A stretch of DNA of 14,254 bases from NCBI GenBank assembly GCA_030040455.1, contig JASHTR010000554.1, forward strand, positions 1 to 14,254, given 5' to 3'. The notes under the pieces are model-generated. The model had not been told where the DNA came from and did no database searches. It saw only the letters and a list, made by a program, of their open reading frames with translations. Origin of the DNA: Terriglobia bacterium (GTDB lineage: Bacteria; Acidobacteriota; Terriglobia; UBA7540). This document shows, piece by piece, positions 2,613-13,678 of the stretch. The position numbers and the translations under genes were made by a program. Position 1 is the first letter of the stretch. Every line of letters starts with the position of its first letter.

Positions 2613-5069
2613 TCAATATCCAATGTTGTGGCATATGCCGCAAGAAATGGAGGCGTGGCGGAGCTTATGGCAATTGATGCAGGAGATCATGGAAATGTCT
2701 TTATCCTGCCGCAACGCAACCTCATCTTGAACCGCGCCATGGCACACTGCACAGCTTACGTTCGCGTGGATATGCGTCTGATGACTGAAAAAAACGAATC
2801 CGGGCAGGTGATCCACCCGAACCCAGGAAACTTCTTGCCCTTCTTCCTGCAACTGAGCCAATTTTTTGATGGTTGGATTGTTCTTCGCAATGGTCTGGTG
2901 GCAAAGCATGCATTGGGCGACATTCGGGATTTGCATCTCGCGGCCGTTTTCCGATGATTGATGACAACTCTCACACTGAATCCCAAGGCCTGCGTGAAGC
3001 TTGTGAGAGAACAGAAGAGGTTGCAACGGAGCGGGAAGAGGGGGGGTAATTTCTGGGGGTTGGTTTCCCGGCCCCCCAGGTACGACCCCCAATTCAACTG
3101 GCATTCGCGTTTCGGCCTCCAACTTTTCCTGCGCAGGACTGACTACCCCCTTGGAGAAAAGCGTATAAGCCGCAAGAACGGTGGGGGCTGAAGCTCCTGT
3201 GCTGAAGCGGTTGCTTGGCCCAACGGCGACCACCACAAATTGCTTCTTCGTTCTCTCGCCCATATATGTTAAAGGGGTGGCATAGCCGTTGGCTTCGAGT
3301 TTACTAACCCAAAGCAACTTCCCGGTTTCGGCATCATACGCTCTGAAACGGCGGTCGGCAGTAGCGGCAATGAAGAGCAGGCCGCCGGCCGTCACTACCG
3401 AGCCTCCAAGATTATAAATGCCCGTCTGAGGAACGCCCTTCGCAGCCAGTGCGTCTACCTCCCCAAATGGCACCCTCCAGACAATTTTTCCGGTATCCAA
3501 GTTAACGGCATTCAAGGTGCCCCAAGGCGGCTTCTGGCATGGATAAAAGTGGTCATCCTCAAACCGGGCATAGCTGCCCCACTGGCTTCTCCGTACATAG
3601 GCTTCGGGTGAGCCGGGAGGCTGCTTTTTCATCTCCCCTACCGATCCCAAGTTAGTGATGTTGACGAAAAGGTAGCCAGAAGAAGGATCGAACGACGCCC
3701 CACCCCAATCGGCCCCCCCCATAGTCCCCGGGATCTCCACCTCCAAGTGCGTATCCCAAGGATTGAAGATATGCCCGGGCAGGCCTGCGCCGAAGGTCTC
3801 CAGGCAGTATGTGCGGGATTCCGGCGTGACGGTGGTGATGTCATTCCGCGTCACCAGAATCGTCGCCAAAGGCGGCGGCTCCAGAGGAAAAGGTTGCGTC
3901 GGCCAAGTCGCTTCGCCGGGCAAGTGGCTTTGCGGGACGGGACGCTCTTCAATCGGAAACAGCGGCTTCCCCGTCAGGCGGTTGAACACGAACACAAATC
4001 CCTCTTTACCTATCACGACCACAGCGGGAATCTCGCGGCCTCCGCGATGCACGGTCACCAAAGTGGGCTGGCTCGCCATGTCCGTGTCCCACAAATCGTG
4101 GTGAACAATCTGGTAGTACCAAACCACCTTGCCGGTCGCCCCATCGACCGCCACCAGGCAATCGCCAAACAGGTCTTTCCCTTTTCGGTCTGCGCCGTAA
4201 AAGTCATAAGAAGGCTGGCTGATCGGCAAAAAGACCAATCCGTGCTTAACGTCGACACTTATTGGACCCCACGCATTCGTGCCTGAGCGGTCTTTCCAGC
4301 CGCCATCTCCCCACGTGCTGTTTCCGAATTGGCCGGGCTTGGGCACTGCGTCGTATTTCCAAACAAGCTTCCCTGTTCGCACGTCGAAAGCCCGCACCGC
4401 GCCGCTGGGCCCTCTCGACGGGTATTCTTGCACCCCAGACCCCAGAATGATCAGATTCCTATAGATTGCCGGCGGCGAAGTTACGTCATAAGGTCGTTTT
4501 GGCCAATCATCCGCGACGCCTTTTCGAAGCTCAATGAAACCTCCGTTCCCGAAGTCCTTGCACGGGTGACCCGTCACCGCATCAAGAGCGAAAAGACGCG
4601 CGTTAGGGGTTGTATAGAAGATGCGCCTGTCCAGGCCATTCCGCTGGGCTCCACAGGTAACCGAAGATTTTCCCTGCCAGTAAGCAACACTGCGATTGGG
4701 CACTGGGATGATATTCTTTTCAGCGCTGCTGAAGGGATTGAAGATCCAGAGCTGTTTGCCCGTCTCAGCATCCACGGCGATGGCGCTGCCCGTTTGAGTA
4801 GCGAAGTATAGGACGTCATCTACCATCAAGGGGGTGCTTTCGAATGCTTGAAGCCAACTGGTCGGAGTCGTCGGCACCTGGTACGTCCAAACCCTTTGGA
4901 GCTGCAAGACATTCGTCCGATTAATCTGTTTCAAGGGGGAATATCGCATCCCCCCGGGACTGTGCCCATAAGACCACCATTGCTGAGCGGCAGCGCGTGA
5001 CCAACCTTGACTGAAACCAAGACTGCACGCGAGCAAAAACCCGGCCAAACTGCATAAGAAACGATTCAT
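2613..5069 (-). CDS. PQQ-dependent (glucose-dehydrogenase-like) quinoprotein fused to ActA-like pentaheme cytochrome c
   Basis: Periplasmic quinoprotein that should oxidise a sugar or alcohol with PQQ and pass electrons to its own c-type hemes. The start at 5069 is chosen because GAGG lies 8 bases upstream and the protein then opens with a signal peptide (MNRFLCSLAGFLLACSLGFS); a frame extension of 13 codons to 5108 lacks this support. Of 818 residues, about 25-640 form the eight-bladed propeller with repeated AxDxxTGKxxW blades. Close to membrane glucose dehydrogenase are NAWGPISVD (about 265), HHDLWDTD (323-330, the region of the proposed catalytic Asp) and IGKEG with its Lys at 355. There is no vicinal Cys pair as in methanol dehydrogenases, and no N-terminal membrane domain. 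After a Pro-rich linker (about 660-684), five CxxCH heme sites follow: CESCH 699, CMLCH 720, CAVCH 773, CINCH 797, CGICH 810. FSHxxH ligand motifs precede the first and third. The tail follows ActA of alternative complex III. Substrate unknown. Confidence 0.9.
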   Translation of the reverse strand: MNRFLCSLAGFLLACSLGFSQGWSRAAAQQWWSYGHSPGGMRYSPLKQINRTNVLQLQRVWTYQVPTTPTSWLQAFESTPLMVDDVLYFATQTGSAIAVDAETGKQLWIFNPFSSAEKNIIPVPNRSVAYWQGKSSVTCGAQRNGLDRRIFYTTPNARLFALDAVTGHPCKDFGNGGFIELRKGVADDWPKRPYDVTSPPAIYRNLIILGSGVQEYPSRGPSGAVRAFDVRTGKLVWKYDAVPKPGQFGNSTWGDGGWKDRSGTNAWGPISVDVKHGLVFLPISQPSYDFYGADRKGKDLFGDCLVAVDGATGKVVWYYQIVHHDLWDTDMASQPTLVTVHRGGREIPAVVVIGKEGFVFVFNRLTGKPLFPIEERPVPQSHLPGEATWPTQPFPLEPPPLATILVTRNDITTVTPESRTYCLETFGAGLPGHIFNPWDTHLEVEIPGTMGGADWGGASFDPSSGYLFVNITNLGSVGEMKKQPPGSPEAYVRRSQWGSYARFEDDHFYPCQKPPWGTLNAVNLDTGKIVWRVPFGEVDALAAKGVPQTGIYNLGGSVVTAGGLLFIAATADRRFRAYDAETGKLLWVSKLEANGYATPLTYMGERTKKQFVVVAVGPSNRFSTGASAPTVLAAYTLFSKGVVSPAQEKLEAETRMPVELGVVPGGPGNQPPEITPPLPAPLQPLLFSHKLHAGLGIQCESCHQSSENGREMQIPNVAQCMLCHQTIAKNNPTIKKLAQLQEEGQEVSWVRVDHLPGFVFFSHQTHIHANVSCAVCHGAVQDEVALRQDKDISMISCINCHKLRHASISCGICHNIGY

Positions 5070-5487
5070 GAAGTTTACCTCGCTCGAGTTGCGCTCGATA
5101 CAACTCAATACCTGCTTTAAGAAACCGGGGGAATTCGAAATTGATCCGGCGTCAGAAACTTTACCACTTCAGCCGTGCGTCCCGAAAATCTTTGCTCCGG
5201 AAGGCCCACGTCCGCTCCACCCGTTGCTTCACTTCCTCGCGGGGAAGGAGACGCAATCCCCGGAAACAAGGGATACCCGGCTGGACCGACGGGCAGCCCT
5301 TCCGCCGGCGGGGATGATGCTAAAAGGGCTGCCGAAACTGAGAATCAGTCGCACGATCTGTGCGAAAAATGACAAAAGCCCCACGGATCAATCGAGGTTT
5401 GTCGCGTGAATTACGCAAAGATTTGCTCGCGACTTGTTGATTCTACGTGGGAGATGTTGCATCAATTAAACAAATTGACACCTAGCT
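5070..5487 (-). other. Long hairpin-rich leader between receptor and quinoprotein genes
   Basis: This 418-base stretch has no credible gene; the plus-strand frame 5068-5409 lacks a ribosome binding site and homology. It carries four inverted repeats. GTCGCG 5401-5406 pairs with CGCGAC 5428-5433 and encloses the palindrome GCAAAGATTTGC. TCGCAC pairs with GTGCGA (5349-5365). GGCAGCCCTT 5292-5301 pairs with AAGGGCTGCC 5324-5333, with the palindrome CCGCCGGCGG in its loop. CTTCC 5232-5236 pairs with GGAAG 5243-5247. None is followed by a T-run on the minus strand, so they are not classical terminators. I do not recognise a known riboswitch. The region probably acts as a structured 5' leader or intercistronic element for the dehydrogenase. 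GAGG just upstream of 5069 is its ribosome binding site. Confidence 0.5.
5292..5333. repeat. 10-base perfect inverted repeat with palindromic loop
   Basis: GGCAGCCCTT (5292-5301) and AAGGGCTGCC (5324-5333) are perfect reverse complements separated by 22 bases. The first ten loop bases, CCGCCGGCGG, are themselves a perfect palindrome, so two alternative folds are possible. It lies about 155 bases after the receptor stop and about 220 bases before the quinoprotein start. With no T-run on either side, an intrinsic terminator is unlikely; an RNA stability or processing element, or part of an attenuator, fits better. Confidence 0.55.
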
Positions 5488-8400
5488 TCAAAAGTTAAGT
5501 TGTAGCTTCAAACTAATTTTTCGGTTCCCATAGGAAAAAGGCTGAATGTAGTCCTCTTTGGTAGCGGAATATAGGCCTACGGTGGAAGGAGAAGATAGGT
5601 CTACAGGCTCAAGTGGGGCGAATGTCGGGTGATTCCATGGATTGGCGATCTGCGCGGCCAATTGTAGACTCATACCTTCTCGATGCAGCAGAAAGGTCTT
5701 GCCGACTTCCAGGTCCCAGGTATTGATCCCCGGTCCCTCGATTATATCCGGGGAGGAATTTCCCAAACGCCCCACGTTTTGAGGAGTGCTCAGAGGGCAA
5801 CCTGCGGTCAAAAGATTAGGTTGCCCGTTAATTGTACTCCCGCCAGGACATATGAACGCGGCGGTATTGAAAAACGGGGCGGTAAGGCCATTGCGCATGC
5901 CTCGGGGGAAGTTACCGTTTGCGATGCGATCTGGGAGCTCGGGCCCGATTCCGGGAGTCATTCCGGCTGGATTGACGCCCTCGTAGTATGGAGAGAGCCA
6001 CTCACCAGTTTGGAAATCAGTGGCGCCAGACACATGCCATCCTCCCAAGATACCATTGAGGATCCAAGTTGCGTGGTTCAAATACTTCTGCCCGGACCCG
6101 ACAGGCAAAGTCCATACGTAGGTGAAAAGCGCCTGTTGATGAGAAGGAAGCTGGCAGTTGCTTTCAAATCGCTGGCGATCGTAGAATCCATCTGACCCTA
6201 TTGGGGGGACAAACGGAGTTTGGGTGTTTGTCCAGTCCGTTACATCCCCCAAACACTTCAGCCATGTCCAGGATCCGTCGAACGTTAGCCCGTGGCCGAC
6301 AGGGTGCCTGACTTCGGTTTGGAACCCACTCGTGCGATTGAACCCGCCGTTCTGGTACATCGTGATGTCAAAAGCGTTCGGGATAGGACGGCGGCTTTGG
6401 GAAAACGGCTGATTACTGGGTGGTGGAACATTGTAATCGGAGCCGTAAATAATCTCCGTTTCGAGATCTCCAAAGTAGGTCCCGCGGAATCCCCATCCGC
6501 GCCACTGGTGATCCACTGTCAAGCTGTATTCTTGTATCATAGGCCACTTTAGATTCGGATTGACGCTATCATACGACAGGGTTGTTGGAGTAAACGTTTG
6601 AATGGGCCCAAATCCAGAAAAAGGATTCGGAAATGCGATCGTCGGCGTCAGAAGTCCATTCGCGCCTAACGACTGTGTCCCGGTCTCACTGCCCGTGAAA
6701 GCCGATGAGGCATTGGCAACAAGCGATACCTCGGAGGTAGAGTAGCGGTAAATCCCGTATCCGCCTCTGATGACGGTGCTTTCTGTTCCACGAGGTCGCC
6801 AGGCAAAGCCAAACCGTGGCGAAAGATCATCATAGGGCGTATTCATCATCGATCGACTGTCTGATGGCCAGCCATCCTGCTGCTCGGTTAAGACTGGGAC
6901 CTGGGCCAGGGGCCAATTCGGAACAATTCGCTTTAAAGTATCAGCTCTGGGGACGACCAGGACCTGGTGGTTAACGTCATACAGGGACTCCGTATTGAAT
7001 TTTTCGTAGGGGAACGGATCGAGGTCGTATCGCAAACCGTATTGAAGCGTCAAGTCAGGCCTTATCTTGTACGAGTCCTGAGCATAGGCGCCAAATTCGT
7101 TCTGAAAAAGATAAGTCGATGTGGGTCCAATGGTTCGACTCATGCTCGAAGGGAGACCCAGCACGAAGTCCGCCCAGTCCCAGCCGCTTAAATCTCCGGT
7201 GAAACTGAATGTCGCAGGGGCAGGAACAGAAGTGCTGAAAAGATCGGCACGGCTAAAGGTCCCACCCATCTTTAAGGTGTGCCTCCCCTCGATGAGGGTG
7301 AAGTTGTCCGCAACGCTTGCAACCTGGTCCACGCTTTTCGACGTGCCAACATCTACACCGGTGAAGTTGACGAAGGAAAGTGCGGGAAGACCCGGGATCC
7401 CACCGGTGTTCTGAAGACCTGCGGCTGACATGATGTTGCTATCAGAAAGCGGATTGGAGAAAGAGAGCGCTGTGCGGGAGAAGCCTACGTCGAGCTCATT
7501 CGTCGAGCGAGGATTAAGGATAAACGTGTCGCCGAAATTTGCAGATGCTCCAGGAAATGTTTGACTCTCGTTGAAATTGTTCGCTAAGCTAAACCCAATC
7601 GTCGGTAACTCGCCCAGCAGGCCAGTTCTGCCGGCTCTTATAAAGAAGGTGTTGCGCGGCGAAAGATCGAAGTCCACTCTCCAATCTTCCTTATCTCTTT
7701 CATAAGGATGGAGGGCATTGATGTACTCATTGTTAACGATCCCGGAACTCGTTGGGGTCGCGGGCCAAAATTGCTTAATAAAGTATTCAGAAACCGAGCT
7801 GAATTGGCTGGAGGGAATAATGTTTCCGGGGAAGGGCTGCCCGGTGAGAGGGTTTTTCACAGTTACCTGCACCCCCCCGTTGTACGCATTCGCAAAGGCG
7901 GGATTCAGTAACTGTGAAAAATCACCTTGTAACATTGCTGACGTGGGAACGCTGTAGGGGATAAGCGCGCTCGTACTAACTGAAAGATTGGAAAAGCGAA
8001 ATTCCTCAAGGCTCGTAAAGAAAAACAGCTTGTTCTTTTTGATGGGGCCGCCAATACTTCCGCCGAACGTGCTGCCGTGAAACAATTGCTTCTCAGGCAA
8101 GAAGAATTGACGCGCCTCTAAAGACTTGTCGTCATAAAGCTCCCAGGCATTCCCATGGATGGCATTCGTTCCCCCTTGCGTGAACATCGAGATTGTAGCA
8201 GGAGTTTTGTACTCAGCAGGAGCATTGTACGTGGTTACATTGATTTCATTCAGAGCCCCTGGGGAGGGGAGCTCCTGACAACAAGAGTCGGCCGCCTGCG
8301 CTCCATCAACAGTCAACCGATCCGCTCCAAGACCATTGGGCAGACCATCGAATGAGGCATTTTGCCCGCCGGTCGCAGAGGTTCCAGGCATGAGGTAGTC

Positions 8401-8910
8401 GAAGTATGTCTGGGCGAGGCGCCCGCCCTGAGTCGAGCCTGCTAGAGGAAGATTGTTGATTAGTTTGCTTGTGGCCTCGCTGGACATCGCGGGTGTTTCC
8501 GTCTCAATTAAAGGCGTGGCACCCCTCACGGAAACGGTTTGAGTGATCTTTCCCAGCTGGAGAGTCGCATCAATCCGCATTTCGCGCGAAGCTGTGAGGT
8601 CAAGGTTGGTCCGCTGGTATTTCCTAAAACCGACCTTTTCGAAGCTGACCGTATACAGGCCGGAGAGGATGCCGTTCACCAGATAGACACCGCGGGAACT
8701 GCTGTGCACGGTTCGCTTGTAGCCGGTATTCTGGTTTGTCACCGTCACGGTCGCATCCGGCACGGGAGCGCCACTGGGGTCAGTGATCTGCCCCAAAATC
8801 TCGCTCGTCGCTATAGTCTGTCCGAGACCAAATTTTCCCGGGGCGAAGACTCCTAAGACTAACAGGGCCACGGAAAGTCCGAGGAGTACATACCTGTTTT
8901 GTCCCATCAT
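5488..8910 (-). CDS. TonB-dependent receptor with N-terminal carboxypeptidase-regulatory-like domain (Oar-like)
   Basis: Full-length outer-membrane receptor, about 1140 residues, expected to bind and import a large ligand using TonB energy. The start at 8910 (or the adjacent ATG at 8907) is preferred: AAGGGG lies about 7 bases upstream and the protein then opens with a signal peptide (MGQNRYVLLGLSVALLVLG, then FAPGKFGLGQ). The upstream frame to 8967 would bury that peptide. Residues about 34-123 are a CnaB/carboxypeptidase-regulatory-like fold (GQITDPSGAPVPDATVTVTN ... GVYLVNGILSGLYTVSFEKV). The plug follows from about 127 (VSVRGATPLIETETPA), with GGSIGGPIKKNKLFFF marking the plug-barrel region typical of the group. 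The rest is barrel, ending KISLKLQLNF with a terminal Phe. An adjacent Cys pair in the plug (DSCCQE) is unusual. It lies 103 bases after the toroid gene on the same strand with no clear promoter between, so the two are probably cotranscribed. Confidence 0.93.
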   Translation of the reverse strand: MMGQNRYVLLGLSVALLVLGVFAPGKFGLGQTIATSEILGQITDPSGAPVPDATVTVTNQNTGYKRTVHSSSRGVYLVNGILSGLYTVSFEKVGFRKYQRTNLDLTASREMRIDATLQLGKITQTVSVRGATPLIETETPAMSSEATSKLINNLPLAGSTQGGRLAQTYFDYLMPGTSATGGQNASFDGLPNGLGADRLTVDGAQAADSCCQELPSPGALNEINVTTYNAPAEYKTPATISMFTQGGTNAIHGNAWELYDDKSLEARQFFLPEKQLFHGSTFGGSIGGPIKKNKLFFFTSLEEFRFSNLSVSTSALIPYSVPTSAMLQGDFSQLLNPAFANAYNGGVQVTVKNPLTGQPFPGNIIPSSQFSSVSEYFIKQFWPATPTSSGIVNNEYINALHPYERDKEDWRVDFDLSPRNTFFIRAGRTGLLGELPTIGFSLANNFNESQTFPGASANFGDTFILNPRSTNELDVGFSRTALSFSNPLSDSNIMSAAGLQNTGGIPGLPALSFVNFTGVDVGTSKSVDQVASVADNFTLIEGRHTLKMGGTFSRADLFSTSVPAPATFSFTGDLSGWDWADFVLGLPSSMSRTIGPTSTYLFQNEFGAYAQDSYKIRPDLTLQYGLRYDLDPFPYEKFNTESLYDVNHQVLVVPRADTLKRIVPNWPLAQVPVLTEQQDGWPSDSRSMMNTPYDDLSPRFGFAWRPRGTESTVIRGGYGIYRYSTSEVSLVANASSAFTGSETGTQSLGANGLLTPTIAFPNPFSGFGPIQTFTPTTLSYDSVNPNLKWPMIQEYSLTVDHQWRGWGFRGTYFGDLETEIIYGSDYNVPPPSNQPFSQSRRPIPNAFDITMYQNGGFNRTSGFQTEVRHPVGHGLTFDGSWTWLKCLGDVTDWTNTQTPFVPPIGSDGFYDRQRFESNCQLPSHQQALFTYVWTLPVGSGQKYLNHATWILNGILGGWHVSGATDFQTGEWLSPYYEGVNPAGMTPGIGPELPDRIANGNFPRGMRNGLTAPFFNTAAFICPGGSTINGQPNLLTAGCPLSTPQNVGRLGNSSPDIIEGPGINTWDLEVGKTFLLHREGMSLQLAAQIANPWNHPTFAPLEPVDLSSPSTVGLYSATKEDYIQPFSYGNRKISLKLQLNF

Positions 8911-9013
8911 GTTTTTGCCCCTTTTCAGACGCGCTCGCCCTTCGGGGATGTTCGTCTCCGGGTCCAATCTGCAACGCCCTAAAGTCGGGAGAACGACCCC
9001 GGCGGCATTGTCT

Positions 9014-11167
9014 TCAGAACCGGACCGTCACTTCTTTTTGCCGATGCCTTACATAGAGTGCCTTTGAGGCAGGGTCAAAAGCCCAGCCTTCTTCCTGATT
9101 CTCTACCGCCGCGACCTGCTCCAAGCTTCTGCCACCCGACGCTACCGAACGCGGACCGGTTGCTACAACAAGTACATCTTCGCTGGGTCCCACCGTGCTG
9201 TACTCGATCTGGCTCGAACTGTAGTCAATATGCTCAACGTCGCTGGAGGTCCTCAACAGATGATTTTCGTCCGCGGGTGCAGCCTCGGGGATTGCCGCCA
9301 TGATGTCGGCAAACTGATCGTTATAGATCAAAACGAGCGGGATGCTGGACGCCGCACGACCGAGCCCAAGGCGCATCTTGCCGTCCGACATCAGACACCA
9401 AGTAACGGAATTCGCAATCTGAATGGCAAGGTCTCGGTACGGCTGTTCTCTTGTTGCCTGCCAAAGCTTGCTATAGAAATGAGCGAGCCGCAGCTCGTGG
9501 TGAGTCAGAACGATCACATAGGCCGTTTGTTCGATGATCCCCGGAAGACCCTGGTGGAAGCCGGGATTCACGACCAGTGTTCGATTGACCCATCCTAGAA
9601 TCTCACGGGCCATGTCGAGGTAATGAGGATGCCCATTGCGATGATCGAGCAGATACATGGCGGTTTCCAGTGGGATCCACTGATCGTACGATTCCATGCC
9701 GCAGGGAACATCCCCATACAAATGCCTCCAGTCGTTGGTCTTCACGGGATTTTGAAGGAGCCATTCAAAACTCCGCCTGGCAACGGCACGGTCATCGGCA
9801 CTGCCAGTGAGCCCAGCCACACGGTCGTAGAATTGCACGTACCCGAGAGCATCCTCGGTATACTCGCACTTCACCGCGCCGGTCTTGGGGTCAACCCGAA
9901 ACGGCCATCCCCCATCAGAACGCTGGAGCTTACGCAAGGTGGAAGCGATTTGGAGGGCGGCCTCTCTGTATTTATCAGCGCCTGTGGTTGCCCAAAGCTT
10001 GAGCAGACACATGCCCATGAAGGCTGACTTGTCCGGCTCCAGCCCCCACTCCTGCCCCTTCCAGCTTCCGTCAGGTTGCCACAACACCGTGCTCGGCACG
10101 AGATAAGGCAGGGTGCTATCAGCCGGTGTGCGGTTGGCAAGGTGCCAGCCTGCCACTCGGGTCGCTATCGCGAGCGCGCGACGGTCACCGCTAAACGCAT
10201 AGTAGCGCACGGCGCCTGAAATCAGCATTGAATGGTTAAAAGCAAATTCCTGAATCCCTTTAATTTGGGCAACGTCATCGGAATTGATCCAGTTGGTCAA
10301 GAGATAAGGGGGAAGAGAGCGGAGGGTGGCCGGCGCCGCGCTCTTATCAACCACTGCATCCGACCCCATCATCCATTCCGTAAATCGCTTCATGGTCTCT
10401 GCATAAGATTGGCGCGCGTGAATGCGCCCTTCCGGATTGTAACGAGCGACCTGGGGAGTAATAGTGTTGGCATCATTCGGGGGCCGGCTTATCTCGAATC
10501 CCGTGAAGAAAGCGGCTGCATCCAGCGTATACAGGCCCACCTGCCCATGTGTTGGGTCATCCGGCCAAAGAATTCCATCGCTAGAATGTGCAGGAGGAGA
10601 AACTCCGATGAAGCTGTAACTCACGATGGGCTGCCCGTTAAAGTAAGCATAAATGTGATGACCGAATGCGTCGACGGTAAGTTCGTGCCAGGCAGTGAGA
10701 TCAGCTTCAACTCGCGCTTGGTCCGCGACCATATTATCGCCTGGTGTAACTTTGTAGCGGAGAATCGCGTAGCTTCCCCCCTTCCTTTTCGCTAGACTAA
10801 AAATCACAAAGTTCTCAGGGTTGCGGTAGTGTAAGACCAAGCCAGCTTCCCGGATGGCCTCTCCATGCGAGAGGTGGAGGCGCACCTTAACACGATACGG
10901 CTCATTCCACTTGGGCCGTTGAACAAGCAATATCCCAGGGCCTTGAGTCTGATCTTGCCGGAACCCGCCAGCGATAGCCTGCCAATGACCGCTCACTGGC
11001 TGGGCCCCATGCGGCAGACCCTCTTTAGGGTTGCCGCTTCCAACTGGTGGATCTCCTGGAGTTGCCACACCCCTTGCGCTGGTTTCCACAATCGCCCCGC
11101 CAGTTCCTAACATGCCTGCTGTCGGGCTTAAGATGAGAACCTTATTGAAGAGACGTCTGGTAACCAT
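9014..11167 (-). CDS. Exported alpha/alpha-toroid protein with N-terminal LamG/DUF1080-like domain; probable carbohydrate-active enzyme
   Basis: I do not recognise a named family with certainty. The 717-residue protein starts at an ATG with GGGAGG five bases upstream. Its N-terminus (MVTRRLFNKVLILSPTAGML) has a twin-Arg motif followed by a hydrophobic stretch, suggesting Tat export of a folded protein. Residues about 55-228 look like a concanavalin/LamG-type beta-sandwich of the kind found in DUF1080-like proteins (LVLHYRNPENFVIFSLAK; HELTVDAFGHHIYAYFNGQP). Residues about 250-625 are helical repeats of an (alpha/alpha) toroid (FNHSMLISGAVRYYAFSGD; ALQIASTLRKLQRSDGGWPF; ECYTED-like stretch KCEYTEDALGY), as in glycoside hydrolases and polysaccharide lyases. 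Residues about 640-717 form a small beta-rich tail. Position immediately upstream of a receptor and a quinoprotein supports a role in releasing or trimming a glycan. Catalytic residues and substrate are not identified. Confidence 0.72.
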   Translation of the reverse strand: MVTRRLFNKVLILSPTAGMLGTGGAIVETSARGVATPGDPPVGSGNPKEGLPHGAQPVSGHWQAIAGGFRQDQTQGPGILLVQRPKWNEPYRVKVRLHLSHGEAIREAGLVLHYRNPENFVIFSLAKRKGGSYAILRYKVTPGDNMVADQARVEADLTAWHELTVDAFGHHIYAYFNGQPIVSYSFIGVSPPAHSSDGILWPDDPTHGQVGLYTLDAAAFFTGFEISRPPNDANTITPQVARYNPEGRIHARQSYAETMKRFTEWMMGSDAVVDKSAAPATLRSLPPYLLTNWINSDDVAQIKGIQEFAFNHSMLISGAVRYYAFSGDRRALAIATRVAGWHLANRTPADSTLPYLVPSTVLWQPDGSWKGQEWGLEPDKSAFMGMCLLKLWATTGADKYREAALQIASTLRKLQRSDGGWPFRVDPKTGAVKCEYTEDALGYVQFYDRVAGLTGSADDRAVARRSFEWLLQNPVKTNDWRHLYGDVPCGMESYDQWIPLETAMYLLDHRNGHPHYLDMAREILGWVNRTLVVNPGFHQGLPGIIEQTAYVIVLTHHELRLAHFYSKLWQATREQPYRDLAIQIANSVTWCLMSDGKMRLGLGRAASSIPLVLIYNDQFADIMAAIPEAAPADENHLLRTSSDVEHIDYSSSQIEYSTVGPSEDVLVVATGPRSVASGGRSLEQVAAVENQEEGWAFDPASKALYVRHRQKEVTVRF

Positions 11168-11183
11168 CGTTGCCTCCCATCTC

Positions 11184-11220
11184 TGTGGCTAAAGTAGCAG
11201 TTTGTGTGATCTTCTCTCAA
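11184..11220 (-). promoter_or_regulatory. Candidate sigma-70 promoter for the toroid-receptor(-quinoprotein) run
   Basis: On the minus strand, TTGAGA (11220-11215, five of six bases of the -35 consensus) is followed after 18 bases by TACTTT (11196-11191). A TG dinucleotide just upstream makes this an extended -10, although the -10 itself matches only three of six bases. The predicted transcript would start near 11184, giving a short leader that still contains the GGGAGG ribosome binding site. It is the only promoter-like signal seen before the three-gene run, and it lies in the gap between the pseudogene and the toroid gene. Confidence 0.35.
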
Positions 11221-11235
11221 GCCGCATTGCCACCC

Positions 11236-11701
11236 TTAGCGAGATGACGCGACCATTCCAAACCTGGGGCTACGCGGCTTTCCTTCGTGCGGGGTCTCGT
11301 GCAATTTCTTGGCGCTCTCGGAATGCCCGGCGATCGCCTCCAGATCAAACTCCAAGCACTCGACAACTTGAAGCCCCTGATATACGTTCCCATAAGCGGG
11401 TGGATTCTGTTTGTCCGTAGCGGCCAACCACCGCTCGACCCGCACCTTGTGCTTCCACCGGTAACCAAAGTCGTATTCGTACAGAAATCGCTAATTGGTC
11501 CGGAATTGGAAGTCGGCGAGGCGAACCTTGCGGATCGGATGAGAAACTGTCCCCGCCGATTCGGCTGATCCCGTAATCTTGGCCGTGGTTGTGGAACCGG
11601 TGGAGGTATAGGTCACTCCGTTCAGAGGCAATTTGGAGGGTGTTATGGAGGTCAGCGATGGTGTTGTCACTCCGTACCAGGAGCTGTCGCCGACGGCGCG
11701 A
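11236..11701 (-). pseudogene. Decayed plasmid pRiA4b ORF-3 family gene (mobile-element passenger type)
   Basis: The family is recognisable once two reading frames are joined. One frame (about 11701-11530) reads RRQLLVRSDNTIADLHNTLQ, then IASERSDLYLHRFHNHGQDY, then GISRIGGDSFSSDP. The other (about 11535-11236) reads RKVRLADFQFRTN, then TAG at 11491-11493, then RFLYEYDFGYRWKHKVRVER. The conserved order IADLHxxLQIA - SDLxLHxF - KVRLADF - RFLYEYDFGxxW is that of the pRiA4b ORF-3 family. One extra base near 11526-11535 explains the frame change, and TAG sits where a Glu codon (GAG) would fit. After RVERWLAA the family's usual Cys-rich CxGG...PPEDCGG block is missing, so an internal deletion is likely. 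The 5' part overlaps the end of the aminotransferase gene. No transposase or terminal inverted repeats were seen nearby. It is not expected to make a functional protein. Confidence 0.8.
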
Positions 11702-12851
11702 GTTGTTCGAGCGCCGCCATCACGCCGCCTTCTTGATGCGGCACGCCGGCGATACGAAGTCCCATTTCGACTCCGCCGAGAGTTCCAACCAGCATTAAGT
11801 CGTTGAGGCTGCCTAGATGGCCAATCCGAAAGGCCTTGCCCTGTAACTTGGAGAGTCCCGCGCCCAGCGACATATCGAAATCGTTGAGAATGATTTTTCT
11901 GAGATGATCCGCGTTGTGGCCCTCCGGCGTGAACACCGCGGTGATGGTATTGGAGTACTCCTCCGGCGCCTCGCAAACGATCTCGAGTCCCCAGTGGAAA
12001 ACGGCCGCGCGAGTGGCCTGCGCGTGACGCTCATGGCGGCGAAACACATTCTCCAGGCCTTCCTCCTCGAGCATATGAAGTGATTCCCTCAAGCCGTAAA
12101 GGAGACTGGTCGGCGGCGTGTACGGGAAGAATCCAGCTCGGTTGTGTTTCAGGATGTCGTGCCAGTCCCAATAAGCCCGCGCCATCCGAGCGTTTTGGCT
12201 GGCCCGTAGCGCCTTTTCGGAAATCGCATTGAAGCTCAAGCCGGGCGGGAGCATCAACCCTTTTTGCGACCCTGCAATCGTAATGTCAATACCCCACTCG
12301 TCGTGACGAAAGTCTATCGCGCCCAATGAGGAGATAGCATCGACGATCAATAGAGCAGGATGATGCGCGTGGTCAATGATCTGCCGAACCTGTGACAGGC
12401 GGCTGGTAACTCCGGTCGAGGTCTCATTGTGAACGACCATCACTGCGCGAATCTGGTGCGTGGCATCGGCGGCGATGCGCGTTTCGAGCTGATGGAGGGC
12501 CACGCCCCTCCGCCAGTTTCCCGGCACGTAATCGACTTCCAACCCTAGCCTTATCGCCATGCGCCGCCAAAGATCCGCAAAATGCCCGGTTTCGAACATC
12601 AGGACGCGGTCGCCGGGGGACAGCGCATTGACGATCGCTGCCTCCCAGGCGCCCGATCCCGAACCCGGATACATGACGACGGGACCTCCGGTTTTGAAGA
12701 TGGGGCGAATGCCTTCCAATATTTCCGTGGCGAGCTCAGCAAATTCCGGTCCACGGTGGTCGATGACGGGTCGATCCATGGCGCGGAGGATCCGGTCCGG
12801 GCAATTGGTTGGTCCGGGAATTTGAAGGAAATGACGACCTGTGCGAATCAT
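11667..12851 (-). CDS. Class V aminotransferase, serine-glyoxylate / alanine-glyoxylate type
   Basis: PLP enzyme that should transfer an amino group to glyoxylate, giving glycine plus hydroxypyruvate (from serine) or pyruvate (from alanine). The 394-residue form starting at 12851 begins MIRTGRHFLQIPGPTNCPDR, as usual for the family. Frame extensions to ATG 12890 or TTG 12908 exist; the TTG overlaps the regulator's TGA stop (TTTGA), which would imply translational coupling, so the start is uncertain. Seen are the glycine-rich PGSGSGAWEA (cofactor phosphate), Asp171 in IVDAISS (pyridine nitrogen), the Schiff-base Lys197 in AGSQKGLMLPPGLSF, and Arg342 in FRIGHLGSLNDLML (substrate carboxylate). 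The last residues (about LAPSATAPGTE) run into sequence of the pRiA4b-type pseudogene, which appears to supply the stop. Ureidoglycine-glyoxylate aminotransferase (PucG) is an alternative in the same family, but no purine-catabolism gene is visible. Neighbours point to glyoxylate/glycerate metabolism. Confidence 0.9.
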   Translation of the reverse strand: MIRTGRHFLQIPGPTNCPDRILRAMDRPVIDHRGPEFAELATEILEGIRPIFKTGGPVVMYPGSGSGAWEAAIVNALSPGDRVLMFETGHFADLWRRMAIRLGLEVDYVPGNWRRGVALHQLETRIAADATHQIRAVMVVHNETSTGVTSRLSQVRQIIDHAHHPALLIVDAISSLGAIDFRHDEWGIDITIAGSQKGLMLPPGLSFNAISEKALRASQNARMARAYWDWHDILKHNRAGFFPYTPPTSLLYGLRESLHMLEEEGLENVFRRHERHAQATRAAVFHWGLEIVCEAPEEYSNTITAVFTPEGHNADHLRKIILNDFDMSLGAGLSKLQGKAFRIGHLGSLNDLMLVGTLGGVEMGLRIAGVPHQEGGVMAALEQLAPSATAPGTE

Positions 12852-12904
12852 TGACAATCGCACCGATCCAAGACCGGTGTTTCCTGACATCAAGGCGCTA
12901 ATGC

Positions 12905-13678
12905 TCAAAGAAACTCGACTTCGGCAACTCGCGCATACTTCGCTGCAGAGGCGCCGCGCTTCTTAACCAGCGTCGCAATAAGTTGTGCGGTCGCTTTGAG
13001 GTGTTTGCGCATCGCGTCTCGTGCGCCTTGCGCATCGTGCCTTTGAATCGCCTCGTAGACTTCAATGTGCTGTCTCAAGACTTTTTCAGGAACGCCCGGA
13101 ATGGCCAGCTTTAGGGAGAGCCACTGGGCCAAAAGATTTCGCAGCAAAGCGACGGCATTGCGCAATACCTCATTGCCTGCTGTCTCCGCGACGGCCGAAT
13201 GGAAGGTCATGTCCGCTTCGAGAACGGAGGCGCCTCGCGCGACCTTGTCACGCATCACCTGGACAGCTCGACCTATCTTCCGGATGTCTTTCTCAGAAGC
13301 GCGCTCAGCCGCGAGGCCCGTGAGATTCTCTTCGAGCAACGCCCGCGCCTCCATCACGTCCCGAAGCTCAGAATGATCGGTGCTCGTAAGCGCCCACAAC
13401 AAGGGGCGTGACAGGAATTGCGACCGGGGACAGACGAAAGTTCCCTCTCCGACACGGCTATCGAGCATGCCGATCAGCTCCATGGCTTTGAGCGCTTCCC
13501 GGAGCGATGTTCGGGCGATGCCGAGTTGCTGACATAACTCGCGCTCCGGCGGGATCCGTTGGCCTGATTTCCATGAGCCCTTCACGACATAGGAAATCAA
13601 TTGCTCGAAAGCGGCAGCGGTGAGGGTAGTCCGCATTATGGGAGTTGCTTTTTTAGGCGTCGTTAATGTGAGTGGCAA
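12905..13678 (-). CDS. GntR family transcriptional regulator, FadR subfamily
   Basis: DNA-binding regulator responding to a small organic acid or similar metabolite. The 257-residue form starts at TTG 13678, preceded by GAGGAAAGG (13695-13687) at 8 bases. The internal ATG at 13636 has no ribosome binding site, although it begins just before the conserved domain. Residues about 20-82 are the winged helix-turn-helix (FEQLISYVVKGSWKSGQRIP, PERELCQQLGIARTSLREAL, GEGTFV). Residues about 105-235 are the all-helical FCD ligand domain with its usual metal-binding set: Asp156 and His160 (ADMTFH), His204 (RQHIEV) and His226 (RKHLKA). Its TGA overlaps the earliest possible start of the aminotransferase, so the two form an operon. 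It faces a divergently transcribed reductase gene. FadR-type regulators commonly control such neighbours and themselves; the glyoxylate/hydroxy-acid context suggests an effector of that kind (inference). Confidence 0.93.
   Translation of the reverse strand: MPLTLTTPKKATPIMRTTLTAAAFEQLISYVVKGSWKSGQRIPPERELCQQLGIARTSLREALKAMELIGMLDSRVGEGTFVCPRSQFLSRPLLWALTSTDHSELRDVMEARALLEENLTGLAAERASEKDIRKIGRAVQVMRDKVARGASVLEADMTFHSAVAETAGNEVLRNAVALLRNLLAQWLSLKLAIPGVPEKVLRQHIEVYEAIQRHDAQGARDAMRKHLKATAQLIATLVKKRGASAAKYARVAEVEFL

Follow-up and report, generated by a model that had tools for sequence, protein, structure and literature searches.

A PQQ dehydrogenase fused to a five-heme cytochrome tail resembling ActA and QrcA in Acidobacteriota

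Among pyrroloquinoline quinone (PQQ) dehydrogenases, type II enzymes have a single cytochrome c domain fused to them, and in type III enzymes the multiheme subunit is separate (excerpted text of PMC8348568). Here, we examine a gene from a Terriglobia bacterium of the phylum Acidobacteriota (GenBank assembly GCA_030040455.1), whose contig JASHTR010000554.1 was analyzed at its full length of 14,254 nucleotides (nt) and is referred to as the window. The gene occupies 2613..5069 on the minus strand, from an ATG at 5069 to a stop codon at 2615-2613, and encodes a protein of 818 amino acids (aa). As the first-pass annotation of this DNA had stated, a single frame holds a complete PQQ beta-propeller, a linker rich in Pro, and a tail in which five CxxCH sites occur.

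The order of PQQ propeller, linker, and C-terminal c-type cytochrome on one chain is that of the type II quinohemoprotein alcohol dehydrogenases (1yiq, 1kv9, and 1kb0, all among the top fold matches, with coverage of the propeller). However, the type II cytochrome, which we take to be a class I domain, holds a single heme, whereas the fusion carries a five-heme domain of the ActA/QrcA type, and the propeller of the fusion scores higher on the membrane glucose dehydrogenase (GDH) family. With the membrane-bound PQQ glucose/quinate/shikimate dehydrogenases (TIGR03074), the fusion shares its catalytic domain (231 of 599 residues are identical to a Rahnella member) but not the N-terminal membrane part, and it differs from them in possessing heme sites. 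The bacterial flavin adenine dinucleotide (FAD)-dependent glucose dehydrogenase, presumably of the GMC fold, has another catalytic fold and cofactor, and its multiheme partner is a separate subunit; the likeness lies in the pairing of a dehydrogenase with a multiheme partner (excerpted text of PMC8348568), and the pentaheme family treated here also pairs with GMC genes. Among the titles and opening lines of abstracts listed from the open-licence literature, none describes an ActA/QrcA-type pentaheme joined to a PQQ dehydrogenase on one chain.

We judge it likely that the protein is a secreted, soluble quinohemoprotein dehydrogenase, in which a PQQ domain of the glucose/quinate dehydrogenase type is fused to a dedicated electron acceptor, a short-loop pentaheme that would be sister to ActA and QrcA. 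PQQ would be reduced by a substrate such as a sugar, a polyol, or a similar compound, PQQH2 would pass electrons singly into the fused heme chain, and the chain would, in turn, reduce a periplasmic carrier or a cytochrome of the respiratory chain; the fusion would tether a pair that relatives encode as adjacent separate genes and, thus, resembles a dehydrogenase-cytochrome pair that has become self-wired. Such an arrangement suggests a possible electron-delivery route for soluble PQQ sugar-type dehydrogenases in mostly uncultured soil bacteria and connects ordinary substrate dehydrogenases with the cytochrome family of ActA and QrcA. With enzyme and five-heme wire on one chain, the protein is also a candidate for direct electron transfer to electrodes.

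Dehydrogenase and heme domains of the fusion

Twenty proteins of 759 to 829 aa match both the propeller and the heme-domain models; one of these (P0002, 99% identical) is the window's own counterpart. Because the 19 further full-length homologues keep every heme site, the fusion is neither a product of chance nor an assembly error, and the earlier claim that it is real and in frame is borne out. A structure model of the whole protein, built from an alignment of 107 rows (A3), is confident, with a predicted local distance difference test score (pLDDT) of 88.8 and a predicted template modeling score of 0.80; an earlier model based on the 20-row alignment A1 (the window protein plus the 19 other full-length homologues) reached a pLDDT of 58.1 and was set aside. 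Residues 1 to 28 (4986..5069; all features of the protein lie on the minus strand) form a putative signal peptide, with a predicted helix at residues 2 to 28. The propeller follows at residues 31 to 640 (3150..4979), and a linker at residues 641 to 682 (3024..3149), Pro-rich in its second half (about residues 656 to 682) and with pLDDT below 50 at residues 657 to 662, leads to the 136-residue pentaheme domain (residues 683 to 818; 2616..3023), which is supported by Pfam, PDB search, heme-site spacing, and alignment. The rows shown by fold searches with the model cover essentially the propeller and, as such, are no test of the tail fold.

The dehydrogenase half matches Pfam PF01011 over the full profile (positions 1 to 595 of 595) at residues 31 to 612, with 659 bits, above the cut-off. 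The NCBIfam model of the membrane GDH family, TIGR03074, gives 495.9 bits over profile positions 151 to 774 of 783, which does not reach its cut-off of 832.65, and positions 1 to 150, the N-terminal membrane part, are unmatched in the fusion protein; the methanol/ethanol dehydrogenase family model scores 243 bits on the same propeller, versus 496 for TIGR03074. TIGR04528, the “acido-empty-quinoprotein” family, was rejected (203.9 against a cut-off of 650). When aligned with the Rahnella membrane-bound GDH, E77, R126, W327, D328, and K355 of the fusion correspond to E222, R270, W462, D463, and K491, residues with presumed active-site roles. W327, D328, R126, and K355 are invariant in 74 of 74 dehydrogenase rows, and E77 is kept in 70 of the 74. 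Asp328 of the HHDLWD motif (4086..4088), aligned with the corresponding Asp of the membrane-bound GDH, is presumably the catalytic Asp, and Lys355 (4005..4007) is presumably the PQQ-contacting Lys. Judged from these matches, the propeller most likely belongs to the membrane-bound glucose/quinate dehydrogenase type, minus the N-terminal membrane anchor, and TIGR03074, the sole basis for a substrate class, points to a sugar, polyol, or quinate-like compound.

The motifs that the first-pass annotation had listed for the tail (FSHKLH, WVRVDHLPGFVFFSHQTH, CGICHNIGY, and five CxxCH) are all present as quoted within residues 683 to 818. The tail opens with FSHKLH (687 to 692; 2994..3011), which would supply two distal His ligands, and continues with heme site 1, CESCH (699 to 703; 2961..2975), and heme site 2, CMLCH (720 to 724; 2898..2912). 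An HxxH motif (763 to 766; 2772..2783), again with two putative distal His ligands, precedes heme site 3, CAVCH (773 to 777; 2739..2753), and Met794 (2688..2690), a candidate axial ligand that would correspond to the Met of the His/Met heme in ActA (ligation as given in the excerpted text of PMC5928083), precedes heme site 4, CINCH (797 to 801; 2667..2681). Heme site 5, CGICH (810 to 814; 2628..2642), lies only 13 residues past site 4. Across alignment A1, all five CxxCH sites, His689, His692, His763, His766, and Met794 are invariant. In alignment A2, which joins 9 fused tails, 20 separate partners, and 3 ActA sequences, nine His and, next to heme site 4, one Met, including the two His of each distal motif and Met794, are invariant in 32 of 32 rows, ActA included. 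This is the number required by the ligation scheme of ActA, and the tail would by this count hold four bis-His hemes and one His/Met heme. No class I cytochrome domain appears in the fusion protein among Pfam matches up to an E value of 1.

Kinship of the tail with ActA and QrcA

ActA, subunit A of alternative complex III, holds five hemes that form a wire of ~45 Å, of which four are bis-His ligated and heme I is His/Met ligated; heme I sits at the ActB interface, ~11 Å from FeS1, and residues 45 to 165 of the R. marinus protein form two subdomains assigned to hemes II to V (all from the excerpted text of PMC5928083). Since these subdomains hold hemes II to V, heme I probably uses the last CxxCH of ActA. 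It is at this site that the two proteins diverge: the nine fused tails have heme-site spacings of 21, 53, 24, and 13 (the first being 20 in one tail), whereas 109 of the best 120 of 8000 scored homologues of the genome's own ActA have 21, 53, 24, and 50. In 8 further ActA homologues, the last spacing also falls within 47 to 63 (117 of 120 in all), and 3 of the 120 deviate or are partial. If heme I does use the last CxxCH, the loop difference would fall where ActA meets ActB.

A sequence search of PDB with the tail returned 8k9e (1.5e-26), 6btm, 6lod, and 6f0k as the top four entries, down to 1e-21. Only 6btm is labeled as ActA in the search output, and the other three we take to be ActA chains as well. 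By comparison, c7 cytochromes reach only 1.3e-4, and the tail is, therefore, not a stand-alone c7. Pfam is indecisive: the tail exceeds the cut-offs of PF14522 (c7; 39.6 against 24.8), PF14537 (c3_2; 36.9 against 25), and PF02085 (CIII; 30.7 against 22.9), but homologues of the genome's own ActA carry the same domains, so Pfam cannot separate ActA from class III cytochromes here, and no ActA model was among the library matches seen. Of the likeness to ActA that was first claimed, one part stands, namely that the tail is nearer to ActA than to class III cytochromes and has the same nine His and one Met. The other part, identity with ActA, is not supported: the heme 4-5 spacing differs, the genome has a separate ActA, and the tail tree, subject to the topology test given below, places the tail apart.

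The tail tree comprises 74 rows and 132 columns and includes 12 ActA sequences, 9 Qrc-associated pentahemes, and 20 fused rows (the window, 8 loci, and 11 of the 19 other homologues). ActA and the Qrc-associated pentahemes stand together on one side of a branch (100/98), opposite the fused tails, the separate partners of PQQ genes, and the partners of GMC genes. When ActA and the fused tails are held as one clade, the approximately unbiased (AU) test returns p-AU = 0.058 at a cost of 18.4 log units, which is not rejected at 5%. In our reading of spacing and tree, the tail appears to be a short-loop sister to both ActA and QrcA and a member of neither.

Two other readings of the tail bear on this assignment. 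In one, the pentaheme is a QrcA-like entry module through which periplasmic dehydrogenases reduce the quinone pool by way of a membrane complex resembling QrcBCD or alternative complex III. The short-loop layout does resemble that of the Qrc-associated pentahemes, 8 of which share it, and the QrcA model NF041781 covers the tail end to end (profile positions 29 to 173 of 174). Its score of 75.2 bits, however, lies far below the curated cut-off of 180; in the genome-wide search, the own ActA outscores the tail on this model (82.5 versus 72.8), so the model is undiscriminating, and these two are its sole matches in the genome at an E value of 0.01. The tail also falls outside the branch that unites ActA with the Qrc pentahemes, and a Pfam scan found no QrcB-like domain among the window proteins. 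An identification as QrcA is, thus, not upheld, and we regard this reading as unlikely.

In the other, which is still less probable, the fusion has a true ActA as its tail and takes the place of ActA in alternative complex III, a possibility raised in the first-pass annotation, so as to feed electrons into the act complex. In its favor are the PDB matches, the first three spacings (21, 53, and 24), the shared nine His and one Met, and the outcome of the AU test. Against it, the loop between hemes 4 and 5 is short in the region that probably carries, in ActA, the heme I that faces ActB, and ActA groups with the Qrc pentahemes rather than with the tail. Moreover, another contig of the same genome encodes an ordinary ActA of 218 aa with an N-terminal hydrophobic stretch and spacings of 21, 53, 24, and 50, directly followed by an ActB-like gene of the molybdopterin-like, twin-arginine translocation (TAT) type. 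A separate ActA match extending up to the C terminus was found in 15 of 15 genomes (the window genome, 7 with fusions, and 7 with separate pairs) at E values of 1.8e-53 or better. The tail, being preceded by propeller and linker, has no membrane helix ahead of the heme domain, and the five other window proteins yielded no act-like domain in a Pfam scan. The proposal that the fusion takes the place of ActA is, accordingly, not supported.

Fused, separate, and overlapping forms

We examined the best 80 of 576 confirmed PQQ relatives in genome contigs, to which the locus counts in this and the next two paragraphs refer. Dehydrogenase and five-heme tail occupy one frame at 8 loci; among these, L011 is cut on its 5′ side by the contig edge, and the dehydrogenase part of L008 is interrupted (its tblastn match begins at 1148, and the tail-bearing open frame begins at 1605). 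Two more fusions, L007 and L017, are cut by the contig end after three hemes, and the genome survey for the same fusion that had been suggested with the original annotation, thus, finds it at 10 of 80 loci. At 19 loci, an unfused PQQ gene of ~600 aa is followed on the same strand by a separate five-heme gene as its next downstream neighbor, and at 2 (L055 and L042), the five-heme gene lies upstream of or convergent to the PQQ gene. The fusion is not common in the phylum: when 199 genomes were sampled evenly across it, a PQQ-type match at 1e-40 turned up in 55, and among the matches listed (up to five candidates scored per genome), the window's gene alone matched through the tail. The records of two loci, L025 and L033, are titled Acidimicrobiia although the gene family is otherwise acidobacterial, which may reflect mistitled records or gene transfer.

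In the last dehydrogenase tree (47 rows picked from among the 80 loci and four proteins), the ten main fusions come together in a single clade (100/100), L017 sits among unfused Bryobacterales, and L015 stands beside the unfused L053 and L057 (97/84) on a long branch that leaves its placement unsure. The fused label requires three changes on this tree, and the starred branches force three; an earlier tree without L015 needed two changes, with two forced. Read from these trees, fusion of the PQQ-pentaheme pair seems to have happened on two or three occasions.

In 12 of the 19 separate pairs (L027, L031, L032, L035, L040, L041, L043, L044, L049, L050, L053, and L057), the cytochrome is read in the −1 frame relative to the dehydrogenase gene, whose 3′ end it overlaps and where its sequence resembles a signal peptide. 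The FSHxxH motif begins only 11 to 35 nt past the dehydrogenase stop in 11 of the 12, and 5 loci lack an in-frame ATG, GTG, or TTG ahead of it. Over the last 14 dehydrogenase codons, the median hydrophobicity of the −1 frame is 2.2 in the overlapping pairs, as compared with −1.2 in the 7 pairs that have their own start and 0.22 in loci without an adjacent downstream partner (18 chosen loci, of which three with a −1 stop were left out of the median). The corresponding Mann-Whitney p value of 1.3e-5 is optimistic, the rows being related. Relative to synonymous shuffles, a value of ≤0.05 was obtained for 9 of 12 overlapping pairs, 4 of 18 loci without a partner, and 1 of 7 pairs with their own start. 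Translation of the cytochrome in the overlapping pairs may begin at an unusual codon, for instance ATA following a G-rich stretch, or may involve a frameshift; inspection by eye showed no slippery site for a programmed frameshift. Two loci with no pentaheme beside the PQQ gene, L033 and L071, have a 3′ end whose −1 frame equals that of the overlapping pairs in hydrophobicity, and this may be the relic of a lost partner.

Short-loop pentahemes also occur beside other enzymes. A profile search with A2 matched 211 of 297 phylum genomes, ActA and short-loop proteins together, and we hand-picked 20 stretches from the listed matches, each reaching at least position 131 of the 135-position model; because of this selection, the counts that follow are not unbiased rates. 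Nineteen of the 20 are short-loop, with 13 to 16 residues between hemes 4 and 5. In 8 of these (L125, L127, L128, L129, L131, L132, L137, and L138), the pentaheme gene directly adjoins a GMC-type flavodehydrogenase gene (L137 also has a weaker PQQ-like match nearby), and 8 others have a QrcB-like gene as neighbor. One has a PQQ gene 1.5 kb off, and 2 have no GMC, QrcB-like, or PQQ gene within ~5 kb. The neighbor models were built from 3 to 8 sequences each, and 4 of the 8 GMC places and 3 of the 8 QrcB places, named as such by Pfam or NCBIfam, themselves supplied those sequences. On the Sphingobium plasmid pSRL1, a related PQQ gene (41.9% identical) is followed by a cytochrome c with one CxxCH in the partner slot; together with the other pairings, this indicates that the position of the partner is kept and that its kind varies. 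Of note is that at L096 (G024:C234) and at G050:C111:125317-129647, the pentaheme gene lies between two PQQ dehydrogenase genes.

More speculative, and on balance doubtful, is a broader scheme in which a single interchangeable pentaheme, the third sister alongside ActA and QrcA, would serve Acidobacteriota as the shared electron plug of unrelated periplasmic dehydrogenases (PQQ and GMC flavin types) and of Qrc-like quinone complexes, such that dehydrogenases bearing it could pass electrons to the same membrane complexes. Some Bryobacterales would have a pentaheme gene that lacks a usual start codon and begins within the dehydrogenase gene in the −1 frame, and the fused and separate forms would represent stages of one tightly coupled system.

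Electron acceptors and genomic setting

Several observations weigh against the reading of the protein as a dehydrogenase with its own dedicated acceptor and a recurrently fused tail. No pentaheme was seen at 49 of the 80 PQQ loci (some of which are cut by contig ends), and the PQQ enzyme family, therefore, has no need of one. The tail tree rests on few columns (132), and a constraint placing all fusions in one clade of that tree is not rejected (p = 0.236). PqqC and PqqE were matched, and strongly, in only 1 of the 15 genomes, all of which carry the PQQ enzyme, namely that of L004 and not that of the window, and in 0 of 14 controls; as such, PQQ is probably scavenged from outside. Lastly, COX1 was not found in the window genome, which is 77% complete, and the model matched 8 of 14 control genomes.

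Least probable of all is an outward flow of electrons from the hemes to minerals or to other acceptors outside the cell: a secreted enzyme that bears a multiheme wire could in principle sustain it, but the MtrB/PioB porin model matched 1 of the 15 genomes (not the window's, and the only sign that the search works) and 0 of 14 controls, other export routes not having been searched, and the partners of the pentaheme are other dehydrogenases and Qrc-like proteins, leaving the extracellular transfer raised in the first-pass annotation unsupported.

The source genome, acidobacterial as judged by its closest relatives, is an assembly of 3.36 Mb in 630 contigs, of which the window is one whole contig. 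A GAGG ribosome-binding site (5078..5081, minus strand) lies 8 nt ahead of the ATG of the fusion gene. Upstream, on the same strand as the fusion, the region 9014-13678 encodes a weakly GH127-like protein, a class V aminotransferase, and a GntR/FCD regulator, none of which has a match in any of the 19 loci against which the five other window proteins were compared. The fusion gene itself is flanked by two Oar-like outer-membrane barrel proteins (PF25183; 3-2207 on the plus strand and 5488-8967 on the minus strand), the second with a CarboxypepD_reg domain. These two were the only neighbors with matches, at 7 of the 19 loci and with 22 to 35% identity over the longest piece.

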